Shown here piece by piece: positions 11,486 to 22,529 of a DNA stretch of 64,000 bases; position 1 is the first letter of the stretch, and every line of letters begins with the position of its first letter. A program made the position numbers and the translations under genes. The stretch is taken from positions 2,760,291-2,824,290 of the forward strand of contig NZ_LT629735.1 in NCBI RefSeq assembly GCF_900104925.1, given 5' to 3'. Below the pieces are notes generated by a model that saw only the letters and a program-made list of their open reading frames with translations, had not been told where the DNA came from and searched no databases. Source of the stretch: Opitutus sp. GAS368 (GTDB lineage Bacteria > Verrucomicrobiota > Verrucomicrobiia > Opitutales > Opitutaceae).

Positions 11486-12139
11486 ATGTCGAAGATTTTT
11501 CCGAAATCCGCCAACGCCCTGCCGCTGCAGATCATCATTTTCTTGGGCGTCCTTGGCGGCGTCGCGGCGGCCGGCATCACCTATTACGCCACGCCGGCCT
11601 ACCTGCGCGTCGGCTACCAGCCGGTCCAGCCCGTCCCGTTTGAGCACAGCCTGCATGCAGGCCAGCTCGGCATCGACTGCCGCTACTGCCACGCGGCCGT
11701 CGAGAAATCGGCCACCTCGAGCCTCCCGGCCGCGCAGACCTGCATGAACTGCCACAGCATCATCAAGACCACGAGCCCGCTGCTCGAGGTCGTGCGGCAG
11801 AGTTATGCGACCGGCGAGCCCGTGCCGTGGGTCCGGATCCACCAGAACCCCGACTACGTCTATTTCAACCACTCGGTCCACGTGAACCGCGGCGTCAGCT
11901 GCGTCGAGTGCCACGGCAAGATCAACGAGATGCGGGTCGTCCACCAGGACAAGTCGCACAGCATGAGCTGGTGCCTCGACTGCCACCGCAATCCCGCCGG
12001 GCGCATCCGCAACCCGCAGGATGTCTTCAATCTCGATTCCCAAACGCTCGCCGCTCAGGGCAAACTGGCGGACGCCCAGAAGTTCGTCCACGACTGGAAG
12101 GTTAAACCGCCGACGAGCTGCTCCGGCTGCCACCGCTGA
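11486..12139 (+). CDS. actA: Alternative complex III subunit A, pentaheme cytochrome c
   Basis: This 217-residue protein has an N-terminal membrane anchor (about residues 12-35). It has five CxxCH heme sites: CRYCH (about 65), CMNCH (about 86), CVECH (about 138), CLDCH (about 163) and CSGCH (about 212). Five hemes and this size are standard for ActA, the periplasmic electron conduit of the quinol:acceptor oxidoreductase ACIII. It overlaps actB by one base (TGATG). Confidence 0.95.
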   Translation: MSKIFPKSANALPLQIIIFLGVLGGVAAAGITYYATPAYLRVGYQPVQPVPFEHSLHAGQLGIDCRYCHAAVEKSATSSLPAAQTCMNCHSIIKTTSPLLEVVRQSYATGEPVPWVRIHQNPDYVYFNHSVHVNRGVSCVECHGKINEMRVVHQDKSHSMSWCLDCHRNPAGRIRNPQDVFNLDSQTLAAQGKLADAQKFVHDWKVKPPTSCSGCHR

Positions 12140-15100
12140 TGAAACGCAAATTTGATCATTCCGCCCCCGCCGGCCCCGCCCCGACCGGCCCGAAATACTG
12201 GCGCAGCCTCGACGAGCTGGCCGAGACGCCCGGCTTCAAGGAGCACCTGGCCCGCGAATTCCCCGAGGGCGCGTCCTCCATCGAGGGGGTCGACCGCCGA
12301 CAGTTCATGAAGCTGATGGCGGCGTCGTTCGCGCTCGGCGGCCTCGGCCTCGCCGGCTGCCGCCGCCCCGAGGCGCACATCCTGCCCTACGGCAAGTCCG
12401 TCGAATACACCGTCCCGGGCCTCCCGCTTTATTTCGCCACCGCGATGCCGCTGCGCAAGTCGGCCCTCCCGCTGCTGGCCGAGACCCACCAGGGCCGCCC
12501 GACCAAGCTCGAGGGCAACCCGAGCTACCTGCCGCATGGCGGCGCCAGCTCGCTCCTCGCGCAGGCCTCGGTGCTCGACCTCTACGACCCGGAGCGCGCC
12601 ACGGCGCACACGAAGAAGGGCGACACGCTTTCCCCGACCCAGGTCAACGACCTGCTCGCCAGCATCAACAAGGCCTACGCCGGCAGCGGCGAGGGCCTGG
12701 CGTTCCTCGCCGACGAGTCCGCCTCGCCGACGCGCGCCCGCCTCGTGGCGAAGCTGAAGGCACAGTTCCCGAAGGCCATCTGGGCCGAATACGAGCCCGT
12801 GCAGGACGAGCCGCCGGTCGCCGCCGCGCAGGTCGCGTTCGGCAAGAGCGTCAAGCCGCTCTACCGCTTCGCCAAGGCCAGGCGCATCCTCTCGCTCGAC
12901 GCCGATTTTTTCCACGCCGAGTCCGGTTCGCTCTACTACGCCCGCGAGTTCGCCAAGGGCCGCCGCGTCACGAAGCCGACCGACCCGATGAACCGCCTCT
13001 ATGTGGCGGAGAGCAGCTTCTCCCTCACCGGCAGCATGGCGGACCACCGCCTGCGCCTCGCGAGCAACCACATCCTCGCCCTGGCCGCCGCCATCGGCGG
13101 CAAGGTGCTGGAGTCGAACATGCTCGAGCCGCTGACCAAGGGCCTCGAGGTCAACGCCGACTGGGTCGAGCAGTGCGCCAAGGATCTCATGGAGCATCGC
13201 GGCGAGTCGCTCGTCGTCGCCGGCGCCGACCAGCCGGTGGCGGTGCACGTCATCGCCTACGCGATGAACGCCAAGCTCGGCAACCTCGGCCAGACGATCG
13301 ATTTCGTGGAGATCGAGCCCGCCGCGGCCTCGACCATCTCGGCGCTCGCCACGGCCATCAAGGCCGGCTCGGTCAAGACCCTCTTCATCCTCAACGGCAA
13401 CCCGGCCTACAACGCGCCCGCCGACCTCGATTTTGGCGCGCTGCTGAAATCCGTGCCGGACGTCATCCGCTTCGGTTATTATAACGACGAGACCTCCGCG
13501 CTCGCCGGCACGCACCTCGCCGCGACGCACTACCTCGAGTCGTGGGGCGACGCCCGCACGGCCGACGGCACCATCGTGCCGGTGCAGCCGATGATCATGC
13601 CGCTCTTCAACGGCCTGATGGAGGTCGAGCTGCTCGCCCGCCTCGCCGGCGAAGCCAAGCCCGAGGCCTACGAGCAGGTCCACGCCACTCGCGGCGGCGA
13701 CCAGAAGGCCTTTGAGAAATTCCTGCACGACGGCCTGGTCGAGGGTTCGGCCTACCCGGTCGTTCCCGTCGCCTTCGACGTGCAGCGCTCCGGCGCCGCG
13801 TTCGCCAAGCTCCCCGCCTTTGCCGCCCTGTCGAAAGACAATCTCGAGGTCCGCTTCGTCACCGACCACAAGATGGACGACGGGCGCTTCGCCAACAACG
13901 GCTGGCTGCAGGAATGTCCGGATCCCATGACGAAGATCTCGTGGGACAACGCCATCCTCGTCAGCCCGCGCCTCGCCAGTGAGCTCGGCATCGTGCCGGC
14001 CGGCAGCCTCCTGCAGGTCGCGCGCAAGGAGGAAGCCGAGTTCTACCAGGGCAAGGAAAACGCCCGCATTTTCGAGCTCACCCTGAACGGCCGCACGATC
14101 CGGGGCCCGGTGCACATCCAGCCCGGCCTGTCGAACTACACGGTCGTCCTCCCGCTCGGCTACGGCCGCAAGGCTTCCGGCCACATCGGCACGAACACCG
14201 GCTTCAGCGCCTACGTGTTGCGCACCAGCGACGCCCTGGCCTTTGCCACCGGCGCCACGCTCCGCGACACCGGCGAGCGCATGCTGCTGGCCAACATGCA
14301 GGAACACTGGTCGATGGAGGGCCGCGACATCGTTCGCGAGGCCAACCTCGACGAGTTCAAGGAGAACCCCGCTTTCGTCGCCGGCATCGGTATGGAGGGG
14401 CACTCGCCCGCCATCTACGGCGACTACACGCCGGAGCAGTTCGCCAAGCTCCCGGCCGAGGAACGCCAGAGGCTCGCCATCGCCCGGGCCACCGAGACCC
14501 CGCGCGGCAATTCCCTCTACGAGACGCCCGACCTGACCGGCACCCACCAGTGGGGCATGTCGATCGATCTCAACACCTGCATCGGCTGCAACGCCTGCGT
14601 CGTGGCCTGCCAGGCGGAGAACAACATCCCGATCGTCGGCAAGGACCAGGTGCTGCGCGGCCGCGAGATGCACTGGATCCGCCTCGACCGCTACTACTCC
14701 GATGGCCACATCGACGCGGAGGCCTTCGGGGCCGAAGGCAACAAGCGGCTTCCCGAGGACCCCCAGGTCTCGATGCAGCCCATGACCTGCCAGCATTGCG
14801 AACTCGCGCCCTGCGAGACCGTGTGTCCGGTCAACGCCACCGTCCACGACGAGGAGGGCATCAACGTCATGGCCTACAACCGCTGCATCGGCACCCGCTA
14901 CTGCGCGAACAACTGTCCCTACAAGGTGCGCCGGTTCAATTTCTTCGACTACAACAAGCGCGCCACCGACGCCCTCTACATGGGCCCGCTCGGCCACCAG
15001 AGCGACATGCCGGAGCTGGTCAAGATGGTGAAGAATCCCGACGTGACCGTGCGCATGCGCGGCGTCATGGAAAAGTGCACCTATTGCGTCCAGCGCGTGC

Positions 15101-15486
15101 AGCAGGCCAAGATCGCCCAGAAGCGGAAGGCCGGCGCCAGCGGCGACATCGAGATCCCGGACGGCACGATCAAGACCGCCTGCCAGCAGGTGTGCCCGGT
15201 CGAGGCCATTGTCTTCGGCAACATCAAGGACGAGCACAGCGCCGTCTCGCGCGCCAAGCTGCAGGACCGGACCTACGCCGTCCTCGGTTATCTGAACATC
15301 CGCCCGCGCACGACCTATCTCGGCAAGCTCCGCAATCCGAACCCGCACATGCCCGATTACTCCGCGCTCCCGCTCAGCCGGGTCGAGTATAACACGAAGA
15401 ACGGCCACGGCGGCACCCACGGGGCCGTGCACGGCGAGGGCCACGAAGCTGAGAAGCACGAGGCCAAGAACGGAGGGCACGGCTAA
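12139..15486 (+). CDS. actB: Alternative complex III subunit B, molybdopterin-oxidoreductase-like / Fe-S fusion
   Basis: This 1115-residue protein has a Tat signal, [17 protein letters not shown], and a lipobox-like LAGC near residues 55-80. A large domain resembling molybdopterin oxidoreductases (about 85-790) follows. The C-terminal ferredoxin domain has Cys clusters at about 814-824 ([11 protein letters not shown]), 884-896 ([13 protein letters not shown]), 916-926 ([11 protein letters not shown]), 980 (CTYC) and 1015 (CQQVCPVEA). Fusion of the two parts is normal for ActB, whose first domain is known to lack molybdenum cofactor in this family. It passes electrons from quinol toward ActA/ActE. 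Confidence 0.95.
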
Positions 15487-16919
15487 TGGGCGCGCCCGCT
15501 TCCGATCAACCCGCCCCGGCGATCCTGGCCGAGGTCAAGCCCGCGCTCGTTCCGCGCCGCGAGCTGGTGGAGCACCACCGCGACTTCCACTGGATCACCG
15601 AGAAGATCTGCGGCATCGTCGAGGGCAAACCCCCCGTCTGGTGGTGGTGGTGCCTGGGCGTCGCCGCCTTCGTCGCCTCGTTCACCGTCGCCGGTCTGAC
15701 CTACCTGGTCGCCACCGGGGTCGGCGTCTGGGGTCACCGCACCCCGGTCAACTGGGCGTGGGACATCGTCAACTTCGTGTTCTGGATCGGCATCGGCCAC
15801 GCCGGCACGCTCATCTCGGCCATCCTCTGCCTGCTGCGCCAGAAGTGGCGCACGTCCATCAACCGCCCGGCCGAGGCCATGACGATCTTCGCGGTCGTCT
15901 GCGCCGCGATCTTCCCGGTCTTCCACGTCGGCCGCATCTGGTTCGCCGTGCTGCCAGGCTACCTGTTCCCGTTCCCGAACGCGAACGGCATCTGGCAGAA
16001 CTTCCGCTCGCCGCTGGAGTGGGACGTGTTCGCGGTCTCGACCTACGGCACCGTGTCCGTGCTCTTCTGGTATATCGGCCTCATCCCCGACCTCGGCACG
16101 ATGCGCGACCGCTTTACCCGCGCCGGCAACGTTTTCAAGGCGCGCATCTACGGCTTTTTCGCCATGGGCTGGCGCGGTTCCAACCGCGCGTGGAGCAACT
16201 ACGAGATGGCCTACCTCATCCTGGCCGGCATCGCGACCCCGCTGGTGCTCTCCGTGCACACCATCGTGTCGTTCGACTTCGCCGTCTCGCTGATTCCCGG
16301 CTGGCATACGACCATCTTCCCGCCGTATTTCGTCGCGGGCGCCATCTTCTCCGGCTTCGGCATGGTGCTCACGCTCATGCTGCCGCTGCGGGCCATCTAC
16401 CGCCTCGAGGACGTGATCACGCAGTATCACATCGACTGCATGTGCAAGATCACCCTGGCGACGGGCACCATGGTGGGCTACGCCTACTCGATGGAGTTCT
16501 TCATCGCGTGGTATGGCGCGAACCCGTATGAGGGCTTCGCGTTCGTCAACCGCGCGTTCGGCCACTACGCCTGGGCCTACTGGATCATGATCACCTGCAA
16601 CGTGGTCACCCCGCAGTTCTTCTGGTTCAAGTCCGTCCGCGAGAACACCACCCTGGTCTGGATCCTCTGCATCTTCGTCAACGTCGGCATGTGGTTCGAG
16701 CGCTTCGTGATCATCGTCACCTCGCTGGCCCGCGACTTCCTGCCGTCGAGCTGGGGCTACTATTCGCCGTCCATCGTCGAGATCTTCACGTTCTTCGGCA
16801 CCTTCGGCGTGTTCTCCTTCCTGTTCCTGCTGTTCATCCGCTTCGTGCCCATCATGCCGATGTCGGAAATCAAGATGGTCATCCCCGCGGCCGATCCCCA
16901 CGGATCGTCGAAACACTGA
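15486..16919 (+). CDS. actC: Alternative complex III subunit C, NrfD-type quinol-binding membrane protein
   Basis: This 477-residue protein has about ten membrane segments and NrfD/PsrC family character. [24 protein letters not shown] and the Trp/His-rich [26 protein letters not shown] loop are typical of ActC. The N-terminal cytoplasmic segment, [20 protein letters not shown], also matches. It is a likely quinol oxidation site and coupling subunit. Its start overlaps the actB stop (TAATG). Confidence 0.95.
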
Positions 16920-16928
16920 GGCGCCGCC

Positions 16929-17459
16929 ATGAACAAGAACTACGGCATCATCGCCGCCTTCGACACCACGCCGGAGCTCTACCATGCCTGCGAGCAGGTG
17001 CGGGACGCCGGCTATTCGCAGTGGGACGCGCTCACGCCGTTCCCCATCCACGGCCTCGACGCCGCCATGGGCATGCCCCGCTCCAAGGTGCCGCGCTTCT
17101 CCCTCGCCGGCGGCATCACCGGCTTCTGCACCGGCATGTCGCTCATCTGGTGGACCGGCGCCTATGAATACCCGCTGATCGTCGGCGGCAAGCCCCTGTT
17201 CAGCCCGATGTTCGCCTTCCCGATCTCCTACGAACTCACCATCCTCTTCACCGCCTTCGCGACCATCTTCGGCATGTTCTTCCTGAACAAGCTGCCCATG
17301 CATTACCACCCGGTGATGAAGGCGCCGCAGTTCGTCCGCGCCATGGACGACCGCTTCTACATCGTGATCGAGGCGAACGACCCGAAATTCAACACCACGG
17401 CCACCCGTGACCTGCTCGTGAAGGCCGGCGGCAAGGACATCGCGGAGCTGGAATCATAA
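16929..17459 (+). CDS. actD: Alternative complex III subunit D (DUF3341)
   Basis: This 176-residue protein has a soluble N-terminal domain (YGIIAAFDTTPELYHACEQVRDAG) that contains LTPFPIHGLDAAMGM, the family's signature. Two membrane segments follow. DUF3341/ActD anchors the ACIII complex and contacts ActC. It lies 9 bases after actC and 1 base before actE. Confidence 0.93.
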   Translation: MNKNYGIIAAFDTTPELYHACEQVRDAGYSQWDALTPFPIHGLDAAMGMPRSKVPRFSLAGGITGFCTGMSLIWWTGAYEYPLIVGGKPLFSPMFAFPISYELTILFTAFATIFGMFFLNKLPMHYHPVMKAPQFVRAMDDRFYIVIEANDPKFNTTATRDLLVKAGGKDIAELES

Positions 17460-17460
17460 G

Positions 17461-18132
17461 ATGCGCTACGCCTACTACACTCTCGCCTTCGTGGTCGTCC
17501 TCCTGCTGTCCGTCATGGGCTTCCGGGGCATGCGCTCGACGGAGCCGCCGATCGAGGTTTTCCCCGACATGGACCACCAGGCCAAATACAAGCCGCAGGC
17601 CGAGTCCAAGTTCTTCGCCGACGGCCGCGCCGACCGCCCGATTCCCGCCGGCACCGTGCCCTTTGGCCGCGATGTCATCGAAAAACACGACAAGGACGGC
17701 AGGGTTCATTTTGACGACCCGGCCTTCCTTCGCGCCGACGATTTCCACTATGACGGCAAGCTGCCGGACGGCACCTTCGGTCGCGGTTTCCCCGCCGGGA
17801 TCGAGGTCACGCGCGACTTCGTCCTCCGCGGCCAGGGCCGCTTCATGATCTACTGCGCCCCCTGCCACGGCCAGCTCGGCGACGGCAACGGCATCACCAA
17901 GTCCTACGGCATGCTGACGACGCCCAGCTATCACGACGACCGCATCCGCAACATGCCCGAGGGCGAGATCTTCAACACCATCACCCACGGCAAGAACACG
18001 ATGATGTCCTACGCCGACAAGCTGGCGCCCGACGACCGCTGGGCCGTGGTCGCCTATGTGCGCGCCCTCCAGCGCGCCGCGCACGGCTCCATCAATGATG
18101 TCCCCCTCGAGCAACGCGGAGGGCTGAAATAA
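17461..18132 (+). CDS. actE: Alternative complex III subunit E, monoheme cytochrome c
   Basis: This 223-residue protein has an N-terminal hydrophobic segment and one heme site, CAPCHGQLGDGNG (about residue 139). A Met axial-ligand region (NTMMSYADKLAPDDRWAVVAYVRAL) follows. In ACIII this is the periplasmic monoheme subunit that hands electrons on, possibly to a terminal oxidase. It sits between actD and actF with 1-base gaps. Confidence 0.93.
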   Translation: MRYAYYTLAFVVVLLLSVMGFRGMRSTEPPIEVFPDMDHQAKYKPQAESKFFADGRADRPIPAGTVPFGRDVIEKHDKDGRVHFDDPAFLRADDFHYDGKLPDGTFGRGFPAGIEVTRDFVLRGQGRFMIYCAPCHGQLGDGNGITKSYGMLTTPSYHDDRIRNMPEGEIFNTITHGKNTMMSYADKLAPDDRWAVVAYVRALQRAAHGSINDVPLEQRGGLK

Positions 18133-18133
18133 C

Positions 18134-19390
18134 ATGAGCGCCCCCGCTTCCACCGCCTCCCTGGCGAACAAATTCCTCGGCGCCGGCCTCGCCGGCCTGG
18201 CCGTCACCGCGCTCGGCCTGTTCGTCTCCCCGGCCCAGCACGTGGCGCTGTCCTACCTCGTCGGCGTCGCCTACTGGGTCGCCATCTCGGTGGGCATGCT
18301 GCTCCTGATCCTGATCCATCACCTGACCGACGCCGGCTGGTCCACGGTCATCCGCCGCCAATACGAGCACGGCATCTCCGCCTTCAAGTGGCTCTTCGTC
18401 CTGTTTCTGCCGCTGCTCATCAGCGCGTGGGTGAAGCCCGGCCTCGTCTGGCCGTGGATGGACCTGGGCCACACGATCCACGGCGGTCACACCGTCGGCG
18501 CCGACCCGCTTTACCTGAAGAAGGCAGGCTTCCTGAACCTGAACATGTTCACGGGCATGACGCTCGGCTTCTTCGCCGTCTGGACCGGGCTCGCCTGGCT
18601 CCTGCGCAAGGCCTCGTTCAGCCAGGACCAGGACGGCGACGCCAAGTGGACCTTCATGAACCGGCGCACCGCGGCCGGCGGCATCGTGCTGACCGCGCTC
18701 TCGCTGACCTTCGCCGCCATCTACTGGATGAAGAGCCTCGAGTATCACTGGTTCTCGACGATGTATGGCGTGTGGTTCTTCGCCAACTGCGTGCGCGGCG
18801 GCCTGGCCTTCGCCGTGTTCATCACCTGCTGGCTCTACGCCCGCGGCGACTACAAGGGCATCTTCAACACCGGCCACTTCCACGCGCTCGTCGCGCTGGC
18901 CTTCGCCTTCGTGGTGTTCTGGGGCTACGTCACCTTCTCCCAATACTTCCTGATCTGGAACGCCAACGTCCCCGAGGAGACCTTCTGGTATAACATCCGC
19001 GAGTCCGGCGACTGGTGGTATGTCGGCATGCTGATCCTGTTCGGCCACTTCTTCGTGCCGTTCCTGGCGTGGCTGTATTATCCCTTCAAGTCCAACCGCA
19101 AGCCGGCGGCCATCATCAGCGGCTGGGTCGCTTTCATCATTCTGGTGGACCTCTGCTACAACGTGCTGCCCGCCCTGAAGGATGCGCACGACGAGCCGCT
19201 GCCGTTCCTCTCGATCAACCTGCTGTGGGTGCTGACCTCCGTCATCGGCGTCGGCGGCGTCTGCGTCTGGTCCTACCTGCGGAGCCTGCCCACGGCGAAG
19301 CTCATCCCGATCCGCGACCCGCGCATCGTCGAGTCCCTCACGCATCACGACGCCACCGCCCCGGAGCCGGGCGCCGCCTCGGCCCACTAA
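18134..19390 (+). CDS. actF: Alternative complex III subunit F, NrfD-like membrane protein
   Basis: This 418-residue polytopic protein has about ten membrane segments and is related to ActC/NrfD. Features include the early HHLTDAGWSTVIRRQYE and the HWFSTMYGVWFFAN stretch typical of ActF. It forms the second membrane module of ACIII, opposite ActC. It is followed after 3 bases by a small membrane protein. Confidence 0.92.
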   Translation: MSAPASTASLANKFLGAGLAGLAVTALGLFVSPAQHVALSYLVGVAYWVAISVGMLLLILIHHLTDAGWSTVIRRQYEHGISAFKWLFVLFLPLLISAWVKPGLVWPWMDLGHTIHGGHTVGADPLYLKKAGFLNLNMFTGMTLGFFAVWTGLAWLLRKASFSQDQDGDAKWTFMNRRTAAGGIVLTALSLTFAAIYWMKSLEYHWFSTMYGVWFFANCVRGGLAFAVFITCWLYARGDYKGIFNTGHFHALVALAFAFVVFWGYVTFSQYFLIWNANVPEETFWYNIRESGDWWYVGMLILFGHFFVPFLAWLYYPFKSNRKPAAIISGWVAFIILVDLCYNVLPALKDAHDEPLPFLSINLLWVLTSVIGVGGVCVWSYLRSLPTAKLIPIRDPRIVESLTHHDATAPEPGAASAH

Positions 19391-19393
19391 GCC

Positions 19394-19699
19394 ATGAGCG
19401 ATTCCTCCAATTTCTCCTTCCCGCACCGCACGCCGGTGTTCACCACGGTCATCGTGCTGCTCTGCTTCGCCCTGTTCGGCTGGCTGGCGCGCAAGGTCTA
19501 CGCCCCGCACGCCTACGCCGTGGACAAGGTCGAGGGCGTCAAGACCCCGGCCGAGCGCAAGAAGCTGCTCACCGACAAGCTGGAGGCGGAGCACACCGCC
19601 GCCACGGGCTACGCCTGGATCGACCAGAAGGCTGGCACCGTCCGCCTGCCCATCGAGCGCGCCATCGAACTCACCGTCCGTGACCACGCCCAGAAGTAA
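19394..19699 (+). CDS. Small single-span membrane protein of the respiratory operon
   Basis: This 101-residue protein has one membrane helix (about residues 14-30) and a soluble tail. The tail ends with GYAWIDQKAGTVRLPIERAIEL, a YxWxDxxxGxxRxPIxxAM-like motif that I associate with short proteins in cytochrome-oxidase operons. It sits between actF and the CcoN-like gene and may be an assembly or linker subunit. The function is inferred from position only. Confidence 0.7.
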   Translation: MSDSSNFSFPHRTPVFTTVIVLLCFALFGWLARKVYAPHAYAVDKVEGVKTPAERKKLLTDKLEAEHTAATGYAWIDQKAGTVRLPIERAIELTVRDHAQK

Positions 19700-19707
19700 G
19701 CCTTGTG

Positions 19708-21153
19708 ATGAATCCTCCCGCTAACAACCGCACCGAGCAGATCGAGATCGATGCTTCCGCCAAGTGGCCGGTGCTGGTCTTCCTCGCCTCGGCCATGGTC
19801 TGGCTCATTCTCGGCGGCGTGCTGCAGCTGGCCGCGAACATGCAGCTGTATCAGCCGGGCTTCCTGGCCGACTGTGCGTGGTTCACCCACGGCCGGCTCG
19901 CGCCCGCCGCGCAGAACGCCCTGGTCTACGGCTGGGGCATGAACGCCGCCTTTGCCTTCGGCCTCTGGCTGATGGCCCGCCTGTCCGCGACCACCCTCCG
20001 CCACGGCGGCTGGCTTTTCATCGCCGCCAAGTTCTGGAACCTCGGCGTCACCCTCGGCGTGCTGGGCATCCTTGGCGGCTACTCGACCTCCTTCGAGCTG
20101 CTCGAGATGCCGCGCTTCGTCTGTTTCCTCCTGCTCGCGGCCTACGCGCTCGTCGGAGTCTGGGCGGTCACCACCTTCAGCATCCGCAACACCGAGAACG
20201 TCTACGCCTCGCAGTGGTATCTCTTCGGCGCAGCGTTCTGGTTCCCCTGGCTCTACGCCATCGCGCAGGTGATGCTCTTCCAGGCCCCCGTGCGCGGCGT
20301 GCTCCAGCCCGTCGTCAATGCCTGGTATGCCCACGGCCTCTACAACCTCTGGTTCGTGCCGATGGCCCTGGCCGCCGCGTATTACTTCCTGCCCAAGATC
20401 CTCGGCAAGCCCGTCTCCAACTACTACCTGGCCTCGCTGGCCTTCTGGTGGTTGTCCATCACCTCGGCTTTCGCCGGCGGCAGCCGCCTGATCGGCGCGC
20501 CGGTGCCGGTGTGGATCCCGACCTTGGGCATCGTCGCCAACATGCTGGTCGTCGTCGGCGTGGTCATCGTGGCGATCAACCTCTTCGGCACGGTGTCCGG
20601 CCGCTTCGCGGCCGCCCGGGCCAGCCTGACGCTCCGCTTTATCCTGATCAGCATCGTGAGCTTCGTGCTCGCCGCGGTCATGAACCTCGCGCTCTCGATG
20701 CGCGACTTCGCCGCGGTGGTCCAGTTCACCCTGCTGGACGGCCTGCGCGACTGGCTGACCTTCTACGCCTGCTTCTCCACCGCGATGTTCGGCGCCGCGT
20801 ATTTCCTCCTGCCGCGCCTGACGGGCAAGGAGTGGCGCTCCGCCGCGCTGATCAAGCTGCACCTCGGCGCCACCGCGCTCGGCGTGATTCTGATGGTCGT
20901 GGGCATGACCTACGCCGGCTGGCACCAGGGCCGGCTGCTCAATGACGCCGCCGTGCCGTTTGCCGAGATCACGAAGGCCATGTCCTTCTGGTTCGCCTTC
21001 CGCACCGGTGTGCTGGGCCTGTTGCTCCTCGGCCACGTGGCCTTCCTCCTCAACTTCATCTGGATCGCGTGCCCGCTCAATTCGCAGGGCACCGCGGCCG
21101 CCACGTTCCGCCCTCCGCCCGAGCTGGGGCTCGCCAAGGAGGGCCACGCATGA
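19708..21153 (+). CDS. ccoN: CcoN-like heme-copper oxidase subunit I lacking metal ligands
   Basis: About 481 residues from ATG 19708; a GTG at 19705 is one codon earlier. It has about 12 membrane segments and aligns clearly with cbb3 oxidase CcoN (WYAHGLYNLW, YYFLPKILGKPVSNY, FLLPRLTGKEW). The key residues are missing. The first low-spin heme His is Ala68. The CuB pair HH is Ser259-Arg260, and the active-site Tyr is Ser253. The HxH of helix X is Tyr353-Ala-Cys355. Only the first CuB His (His209) remains. It is intact, without stops, and overlaps the CcoO-like gene by ATGA. It probably cannot bind heme b3/CuB and may act as a structural or electron-relay partner of ACIII. Confidence 0.85.
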   Translation: MNPPANNRTEQIEIDASAKWPVLVFLASAMVWLILGGVLQLAANMQLYQPGFLADCAWFTHGRLAPAAQNALVYGWGMNAAFAFGLWLMARLSATTLRHGGWLFIAAKFWNLGVTLGVLGILGGYSTSFELLEMPRFVCFLLLAAYALVGVWAVTTFSIRNTENVYASQWYLFGAAFWFPWLYAIAQVMLFQAPVRGVLQPVVNAWYAHGLYNLWFVPMALAAAYYFLPKILGKPVSNYYLASLAFWWLSITSAFAGGSRLIGAPVPVWIPTLGIVANMLVVVGVVIVAINLFGTVSGRFAAARASLTLRFILISIVSFVLAAVMNLALSMRDFAAVVQFTLLDGLRDWLTFYACFSTAMFGAAYFLLPRLTGKEWRSAALIKLHLGATALGVILMVVGMTYAGWHQGRLLNDAAVPFAEITKAMSFWFAFRTGVLGLLLLGHVAFLLNFIWIACPLNSQGTAAATFRPPPELGLAKEGHA

Positions 21154-21824
21154 AAAACGGACTGGCCCTTTTCCTCGGCGTCTTCGCCACCCTCGCGCTT
21201 TCCTGGACCGGCCTGTTGCTGACCGCCCACCGGCAGATCGGCGGCCTCGGCCAGTTCAAGGACCCGGCGGATGACTCGCTGCATCCGGCGGCGATGTCCG
21301 GTCTGGCCCACCAGGGCCTCCTCGTTTACCAGGACCTCGGTTGCGTCACCTGCCACACCCAGCAGGTCCGCCAGCACGGTTTCGGCAACGATCTCAATGA
21401 GGGCGGCCGCAAGTGGGGCGAGCGCGGCAGCTACGCCCGCGACTACATCCGCGACGCCACCGTCCTGATCGGCCAGAACCGCCTCGGGCCCGACCTCCGC
21501 AATGTGGGCGCCCGGCTCGGTGACGCCACGCCCCAGGAATACGCCGAGTGGTTCTACAAGCTGCTCTACGCCCCGCAATCGGTCGCCGCCGGCACCAACA
21601 TGCCGGCCCACACCTTCCTGTTCGACGTCCACCCGTTGGCCGGCCGCCAGCCCTCGGCCCACGCCCTGGCGCTGCCGTCCAAGTTCTCGCCCGGCCCCGG
21701 CCTCGAAGTGGTGCCCACGTCGCGCGCCGTCGCGCTGGTGGCCTATCTGCAAAGCTTGAAGGACACCTACGACTATCCCACCGAGCGCAGCCGGAATGAA
21801 CCCGCCAAGGAGGGCGGCCACTAA
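21150..21824 (+). CDS. ccoO: CcoO-like monoheme cytochrome c (cbb3 oxidase subunit II)
   Basis: About 224 residues from ATG 21150, which overlaps the CcoN-like stop and has a good AAGGAGGG-type ribosome site at about 21137. One N-terminal membrane helix is followed by YQDLGCVTCHTQQVRQHG (heme site CVTCH). Downstream are RLGPDLRNVGAR and the Met ligand region GTNMPAHTFLF, all CcoO hallmarks. The heme site is intact even though its CcoN partner lacks its ligands. Confidence 0.9.
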   Translation: MKNGLALFLGVFATLALSWTGLLLTAHRQIGGLGQFKDPADDSLHPAAMSGLAHQGLLVYQDLGCVTCHTQQVRQHGFGNDLNEGGRKWGERGSYARDYIRDATVLIGQNRLGPDLRNVGARLGDATPQEYAEWFYKLLYAPQSVAAGTNMPAHTFLFDVHPLAGRQPSAHALALPSKFSPGPGLEVVPTSRAVALVAYLQSLKDTYDYPTERSRNEPAKEGGH

Positions 21825-21825
21825 G

Positions 21826-22476
21826 ATGAGCGCGAACGATTCCAATTTCCGCGCGGAGCAGGCCGGCGCCAGCGACGAGAGCATCCAGCAGGTCCACGCC
21901 CGGCTGCAGACGACCAAGCCCGAGAAGACCGACGGTTATTCCAAGCTGCCGCTCGTGCTGCTCGGCCTGATGTGCTCGGCCATTTTCTTCGGCTCGATCT
22001 ACCTCGCGCACTATTCGCTCCGCTTCGACCCGCTCGTCTACAGCGAGCACGCCAGCCGCGAGAAGCCGGGTGCCGTCAAGATCGTTCCGCTCACCCGCGC
22101 CCAGCTGGGCAAGAAGGTCTTCGACGCCACCTGCATCACCTGCCACCAGGCCAACGGCCTCGGGGTTCCCGGCCAGTATCCGCCGCTGGCGGGCTCCGAG
22201 TGGGCCCAGGGCAACGAGGAACGCGTCATCCGCATCGTGCTCCACGGCCTCAACGGCCCGATCACGGTCGAGGGCAAGGAATTCAACAACGTCATGGCCC
22301 CGCTCGGGGCGGCCTTGAAGGACGAGCAGATTGCCAACGCGCTTTCCTATGTGCGCTCCTCCTGGGGCAACAAGGCCCCCGAGGTGCAGCCCGAGACCGT
22401 CGCCAAGGTCCGCGCCGACACCGCCAGCCGCAGCGGCTACTGGACCGCCGCCGAACTGCAGAAGATCGGCAACTGA
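21826..22476 (+). CDS. Membrane-anchored monoheme cytochrome c, CcoP-like
   Basis: About 216 residues from ATG 21826. There is one membrane helix (about residues 42-62) and one heme site, CITCHQANGLGVPGQYPPL. A Met-ligand stretch (NNVMAPLGAALKDEQIANAL) follows. It resembles the cytochrome domains that end cbb3-type gene sets but has a single heme, whereas CcoP usually has two. It is the last gene before a strong terminator. Confidence 0.85.
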   Translation: MSANDSNFRAEQAGASDESIQQVHARLQTTKPEKTDGYSKLPLVLLGLMCSAIFFGSIYLAHYSLRFDPLVYSEHASREKPGAVKIVPLTRAQLGKKVFDATCITCHQANGLGVPGQYPPLAGSEWAQGNEERVIRIVLHGLNGPITVEGKEFNNVMAPLGAALKDEQIANALSYVRSSWGNKAPEVQPETVAKVRADTASRSGYWTAAELQKIGN

Positions 22477-22503: not shown

Positions 22504-22529
22504 AAAAGCCGGGCGAAAGCCCGGCTTTT
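22504..22529 (+). terminator. Rho-independent terminator of the ACIII operon
   Basis: A perfect 11-bp stem, AAAAGCCGGGC, with a GAAA tetraloop and a T-tract, 28 bases after the last cytochrome gene. It is strong and nearly symmetrical, so it may act in both directions. Confidence 0.93.

Follow-up and report, generated by a model that had tools for sequence, protein, structure and literature searches.

A CcoN-like protein without cofactor ligands in the alternative complex III operon of Opitutus sp. GAS368 and its relatives in Verrucomicrobiota

The window, a stretch of 64,000 nucleotides from Opitutus sp. GAS368 (NZ_LT629735.1, positions 2,760,291 to 2,824,290), is part of a complete 4.15 Mb chromosome and carries an operon of alternative complex III (ACIII) in the order actA-actB-actC-actD-actE-actF-orf101-NL-OL-PL, followed by a terminator-like palindrome. 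The features are given below with the evidence for each assignment in brackets; replaced residues are those of CcoN of Pseudomonas stutzeri (3MK7).

11486..12139, + strand: actA, pentaheme cytochrome c subunit of ACIII with five CxxCH (sequence; gene order in related loci)
12139..15486, + strand: actB, iron-sulfur subunit of ACIII (sequence; conserved order)
15486..16919, + strand: actC, NrfD-like quinol subunit of ACIII (PF03916, 77 bits; conserved order)
16929..17459, + strand: actD of ACIII (PF11821 ActD, 218 bits)
17461..18132, + strand: actE, monoheme cytochrome c subunit of ACIII (PF13442/PF00034; conserved order)
18134..19390, + strand: actF of ACIII (without Pfam match; position and conservation)
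19394..19699, + strand: orf101, small protein that probably has a single membrane helix (open reading frame; no family match)
19708..21153, + strand: NL, ligand-less CcoN-like protein (frame, Pfam, alignment to 3MK7, AlphaFold/Foldseek)
19909..19911, + strand: codon of Ala68, replacing the low-spin heme b ligand His60 (3MK7 alignment; invariant in 23 clade members)
20332..20334, + strand: codon of His209, sole retained ligand position, CuB His207 (3MK7 alignment; Asn in 4 of 23 clade members)
20464..20466, + strand: codon of Ser253, replacing the active-site Tyr251 (3MK7 alignment)
20482..20487, + strand: codons of Ser259-Arg260, replacing CuB His257-His258 (3MK7 alignment; Arg260 invariant in 23 clade members)
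20746..20754, + strand: codons of Arg347-Asp348-Trp349, replacing His345-x-His347 of helix X (phmmer, MAFFT; all three invariant in the clade)
21150..21824, + strand: OL, CcoO-like monoheme cytochrome c (PF02433 FixO; CxxCH in relatives)
21826..22476, + strand: PL, monoheme cytochrome c anchored in the membrane, similar to CcoP but with a single heme motif where CcoP has two (PF00034/PF13442; start by alignment)
22504..22529, no strand: palindromic terminator-like hairpin after PL (consensus match only)

The hairpin is probably the end of the operon. NL directly follows actF and orf101 and precedes the O and P genes, as expected of an ACIII-linked C-type oxidase module, and its stop codon overlaps the start of OL (21150) as ATGA, in agreement with the intact, translationally coupled frame described in an earlier note on this DNA. 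Compared with CcoO and diheme CcoP, OL shows the FixO domain and PL a single CxxCH, and both score under the respective TIGR cut-offs. Homologues of orf101 occupy this position in most related loci, whether the ligands of NL are present there or not.

The frame of NL runs from an ATG at 19708 to the stop codon at 21151-21153 and encodes 481 amino acids, with a GTG at 19705 as possible alternative start. It matched Pfam COX1 (PF00115) with 138.5 bits over residues 22-433 and CcoN of 3MK7 over residues 24-414 in phmmer (E 2.5e-21). Its AlphaFold model reached a mean pLDDT of 93, and the best solved matches to the predicted fold in Foldseek were cbb3 CcoN chains with TM-scores of 0.86-0.88 (0.88 at 22% identity for 3MK7), so that both PF00115 and the predicted structure identify a COX1 fold with 12 membrane helices. 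The homology to CcoN claimed in the earlier note was thereby borne out, and so was its claim that most catalytic residues are missing. In 3MK7 we take His60 to be the ligand of low-spin heme b, His207, His257 and His258 those of CuB, Tyr251 the active-site tyrosine, and His345 and His347 the helix X pair; these seven positions were read from the alignment of NL and scored. The low-spin heme b histidines are absent, as helix 2 presents Ala68 and helix X is devoid of His; of the heme b3 histidine and the CuB triad only His209 is kept, beside Ser259-Arg260, Arg347 and Trp349; the tyrosine of helix VII is replaced by Ser253 (Ser or Thr across the clade). Ala68, Ser253 and Ser259-Arg260 had been assigned identically before, whereas helix X had been placed at Tyr353-Ala-Cys355, six residues off the position given by both phmmer and MAFFT, which nevertheless holds no His either. 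That only His209 remains is correct for the window protein, but not for four sister sequences with Asn instead.

On the evidence of its sequence NL is a CcoN-fold protein without the residues for heme b, heme b3, CuB and the tyrosine, His209 alone being left, and should be no oxygen reductase in the window lineage. Nor does it qualify as a nitric oxide reductase of the heme-copper type, since the ligands for two heme b sites and a three-His FeB are missing. The TIGR00780 (ccoN) model gave 100.7 bits, under its cut-off of 583.15; even fully liganded orthologues scored merely 225-254.

NL had a match in 50 of the 57 relatives and, order-wide, in 208 of 277 genomes, both counts including a few genomes in which a cbb3 CcoN alone was matched, and the order of the actABCDEF-orf101-N-O-P operon is conserved across the order. 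Eighteen same-genus orthologues (70-92% identical) were recovered across the ligand positions, two more matches being split between contigs and one genome being without match; all 18 carry A, S/T, S/A-R and R-W at these positions. The substitutions are thus conserved next to actF, and because they are shared to this extent, chance or an error of annotation or assembly could be ruled out as their cause. Among 155 NL proteins from the whole order, 45 possess all seven ligand positions and 110 lack the full set (hereafter lost); most of the latter retain zero or one ligand, with highly varied replacements. In related genera this place in the operon is taken by orthologues with all ligands, which NL matches over the full length with up to 44-48% identity, and the alignment register is therefore not in doubt. 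Homologues with retained histidines, which had been named as grounds for refutation, do exist at this locus, but they point to repeated loss and not to misalignment.

An intact query gave 80 named relatives, a few of them on contigs too short to show Act genes; in this set intact NL adjoins ActC/E/F, OL and PL in six orders (Opitutales, Puniceicoccales, Pedosphaerales, Chthoniobacterales, Terrimicrobiales and Verrucomicrobiales). Intact forms also occurred in metagenome-assembled genomes labelled Planctomycetota, Omnitrophota and Myxococcales, labels that may be wrong. The same 80 include partly degraded proteins with six (L246, His257 gone), five (L199) and four (L195) of the seven ligands, in which the CuB and Tyr residues go first and the heme ligands stay, and more ligand losses were detected in other families of the class.

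The loss of ligands could mean that NL is a slowly decaying relic, kept only by its place inside an essential operon, and lost proteins do differ more among themselves than intact ones do (35% versus 58% mean pairwise identity in thinned sets). However, dN/dS of NL within the genus is 0.22-0.44, in the range of OL, PL and ActF, the aligned frames of sampled relatives are free of stops, about 32% of the columns are invariant in the 23-member clade of the window protein, and lost lineages maintain a full-length frame down to 31-34% identity with it. Owing to these dN/dS values and open frames NL is not regarded as decaying, as had been stated before, and the relic explanation is considered very improbable. 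With its catalytic residues gone and the protein conserved under selection, NL would classify as a pseudoenzyme.

Conservation after the loss is unevenly distributed. With sidedness taken from CcoN topology and the pocket approximated by the helix neighbours of the ligand positions, the ratio of conservation between lost and intact proteins is lowest in the cofactor pocket (0.43) and highest in the periplasmic loops (0.72). The full-length cytochromes OL and PL keep the two Cys and the His of their CxxCH motifs in 100% of cases, both in the lost loci (96) and in the intact ones (41). Met167 of PL is present in 98% of lost loci; the axial Met153 of OL is found in 74% of lost compared with 100% of intact loci, so that part of the lost loci may have a changed O heme. 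Trp136 and His140 of OL, invariant in intact loci, are relaxed to 41% and 40% in lost ones, together with NL. The docking of cytochromes proposed in the earlier note is consistent with the constant heme motifs and the well-kept periplasmic loops. In two families (f2, which keeps His257, His258 and one helix X His, and f18) OL is extended to 370-435 amino acids and carries two CxxCH (L060, L062, L165, L169-L172, L175, L177 and L179).

Within the window clade the emptied pocket shows Arg260, Arg347, Asp348 and Trp349 in 23 of 23 members. This invariance, charges included, goes beyond neutral plugging and would suit a protein which gained new chemistry or a transport role in the former cofactor cavity, such as quinone binding or an ion path. 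Yet other lost lineages carry wholly different residues there, hence no new site is shared family-wide, and when lost proteins are compared with one another the other membrane parts are slightly better conserved than the pocket; a new role is for these reasons deemed rather unlikely. It might also be supposed that heme or metal is still bound via shifted ligands and NL remains a redox enzyme, as His385 hardly varies among either intact or lost forms, His443 is invariant in the window clade and His209 is mostly kept. Against this, the gapless alignment and the confident CcoN-like fold leave His209, which is Asn in sister species, as the sole histidine near the old sites, and His385 aligns with a His of 3MK7 and is thus an old feature and no replacement ligand. 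To this second alternative we give hardly any credence.

The number of losses was approached by trees of NL and of its operon partners. The ActA-F tree showed 11 changes of NL state, seven of them forced by well-supported branches, and the OL+PL tree 12 changes, six of them forced; a single lost clade was rejected by both data sets (AU p 5e-5 and p 1.4e-4, respectively). The NL tree of the order required at least three changes and grouped 105 of the 110 lost proteins, and a wider NL tree gave six changes, five forced; in the latter one row (L039) had been wrongly cut and labelled as lost, but lies inside the large lost clade and was judged not to alter the count. On 35 loci NL united all 23 lost members (support 95) and rejected one ACIII-like grouping (p 0.001), whereas dropping columns tied to the intact state raised the NL count from one to three. 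Ligand loss appears to have arisen at least three to six times according to the N-protein trees and six to 12 times according to the partner trees; repeated loss is supported by every widely sampled data set. The conflict between NL and partner trees is probably due to long branches and shared relaxation. A single origin of the loss, favoured by NL data, was rejected on the ACIII and OL+PL data.

The grouping of most lost proteins and the rejection of an ACIII-like topology by NL would also be expected if a paralogue without ligands had arisen by one ancient loss, and lineages had then exchanged the two kinds of copy, intact and lost, in place. Given the ACIII and OL+PL results, such exchange would need NL alone to be swapped many times between two fixed neighbours; moreover, the count rises once state-associated columns are removed, the partly degraded forms stand among intact ones, and the NL tree itself demands at least three or, in the wider set, five changes. 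Exchange is accordingly thought to be an unlikely explanation. The repurposed module envisaged in the earlier note keeps its basis in the missing ligands and the heme proteins adjoining ACIII, but is not one odd protein; it is one of many conversions of a C-type oxidase linked to ACIII, of which related genera and other orders still possess the intact form.

A candidate for loss within one genus (g41, with intact L080 and L083 and lost L130) was given up, as L130 has another place in the OL+PL tree. The ligand-less NL of L130 (G270) belongs to a genus otherwise intact among its sampled members, and its OL and PL group with those of another genus (L047), which suggests transfer of that operon part.

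The presence of other oxidases differs between genomes. In two genomes of one genus, 99% and 98% complete (G046 and G108), intact NL is the sole COX1 gene, a third member of this genus (G163) likewise has a single COX1 gene, and no bd oxidase was found in G046; in G046 and G108 intact NL is probably the terminal oxidase. Every lost genome checked contains at least one further COX1 gene, in one case only a fragment, and the window chromosome has genes for an aa3-type subunit (C1:598828) and for a fused CcoNO cbb3 oxidase (C1:844061), both intact. This would fit a loss of the metal sites that is tolerated only where another oxidase exists, a contrast resting on few cases, since most intact genomes have another oxidase too. 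In four families of other orders (f29, f33, f30 and f37) A-type oxidase genes come directly after lost NL-OL-PL on the same strand. CtaD/E/C and COX4 were located directly after ligand-less NL-OL-PL behind ACIII genes in L312 (12240-18911) and L313-L316. In G306 (L326) CtaE/CtaC-like A-type oxidase genes directly follow ACIII and NL, OL and PL are all gone, the module seemingly having been lost as a unit. Genomes of the order without NL are without ActD as well (21 of 21).

Our preferred explanation, to which we assign a probability of roughly 0.58, is that NL descends from a C-type oxidase core and is now a non-catalytic scaffold, which holds the O and P cytochromes on ACIII while the electrons go to another oxidase. 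NL would have originated as the catalytic subunit of a cbb3-like oxidase that was the last module of the ACIII operon; the window genus and, independently, several other lineages would then have lost the heme b, heme b3, CuB and Tyr sites, retaining the fold, the operon position and both heme c partners. NL would anchor the O and P cytochromes beside ActA/ActE within the ACIII assembly, and these c hemes would relay quinol-derived electrons to an oxidase with genes of its own (aa3/caa3 or fused cbb3), either directly or via a soluble cytochrome c. The physical complex of NL with ACIII, the docking role and the electron route are what we infer from gene order and conservation. The scaffold is suggested by the retained predicted fold, a dN/dS unlike that of decay, conserved operon order, retained CxxCH motifs and best-kept periplasmic loops; furthermore by the relaxation of Trp136 and His140 of OL along with NL, the probable service of intact NL as terminal oxidase in G046 and G108, the additional COX1 genes of lost genomes, the joint absence of NL and ActD, and the A-type oxidase genes behind lost modules in four families. 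Four points count against it: ACIII of G306 dispenses with the module, so at least one lineage does without such a scaffold; in the window genome the genes for the aa3 and cbb3 oxidases lie far from the operon and no partner is indicated; the lower retention of Met153 of OL in lost loci may mean an altered O heme; and the NL tree pulls most lost proteins together, as a single ancient loss with gene exchange would. The broader proposition, that in Verrucomicrobiota an ACIII-linked oxidase core was converted many times to a cofactor-free structural subunit, a dead core bridging the quinol dehydrogenase and another, active oxidase, in a replicated series with intermediates, is put forward at even odds.

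The neighbourhood as such is known. Refojo et al. (2010), as quoted in PMC8498564, noted an ACIII operon beside a C-type oxidase in Opitutaceae and in methanotrophs of the Verrucomicrobiota, with actABCDEF followed by genes for CcoN-like and CcoO-like proteins and cytochrome c as in the window, and it is most likely this oxidase that the intact orthologues represent. In contrast to that system the CcoN-like subunit of the window is without cofactor ligands, and the passages of PMC8498564 on this operon are silent on ligand loss. With cbb3 CcoN (3MK7) NL shares end-to-end homology and the predicted fold, but all heme b, b3, CuB and Tyr residues except His209 are replaced. In the ACIII-aa3 supercomplex of Flavobacterium johnsoniae and ACIII of Rhodothermus marinus electrons reach a partner oxidase via heme c subunits (PMC8552683, PMC8361435), and the A-type oxidase genes behind the operon in other verrucomicrobial families resemble this arrangement; the oxidase there, however, is catalytic and, in F. 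johnsoniae, contacts ACIII via its subunit III, with no dead core between the two, unlike the arrangement proposed for NL. Pseudoenzymes are likewise conserved and selected without the catalytic residues of their family (review PMC10211241). In open-access papers no pseudoenzyme was found described for the heme-copper oxidase superfamily, and in the open-access full texts searched neither a CcoN lacking its ligands nor a recurrence of such loss was described.

The metal sites are regarded as what defines the core subunit of a terminal oxidase. In NL and its relatives the fold has repeatedly survived the loss of that chemistry, and one syntenic position, held in many genomes by intact, partly degraded or fully degraded forms, allows asking what a respiratory assembly needs from an oxidase besides oxygen reduction. 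The repeated loss of ligands in a gene that stays intact between ACIII and two genes of heme proteins suggests that a respiratory enzyme was turned into a structural part several times, and a ccoN-like annotation beside ACIII in Verrucomicrobiota often does not denote a working oxidase.

Intact relatives of NL were also encountered outside the ACIII operon. Second, intact copies exist in G033 (L329), near A-type oxidase genes and with an open frame of 995 amino acids, and in G297 (L330), with OL and PL of its own. A further intact C-type oxidase family (L063 and L064; 558-618 amino acids, about 27% identical to NL) scores under the ccoN cut-off and has a two-heme OL-like partner.
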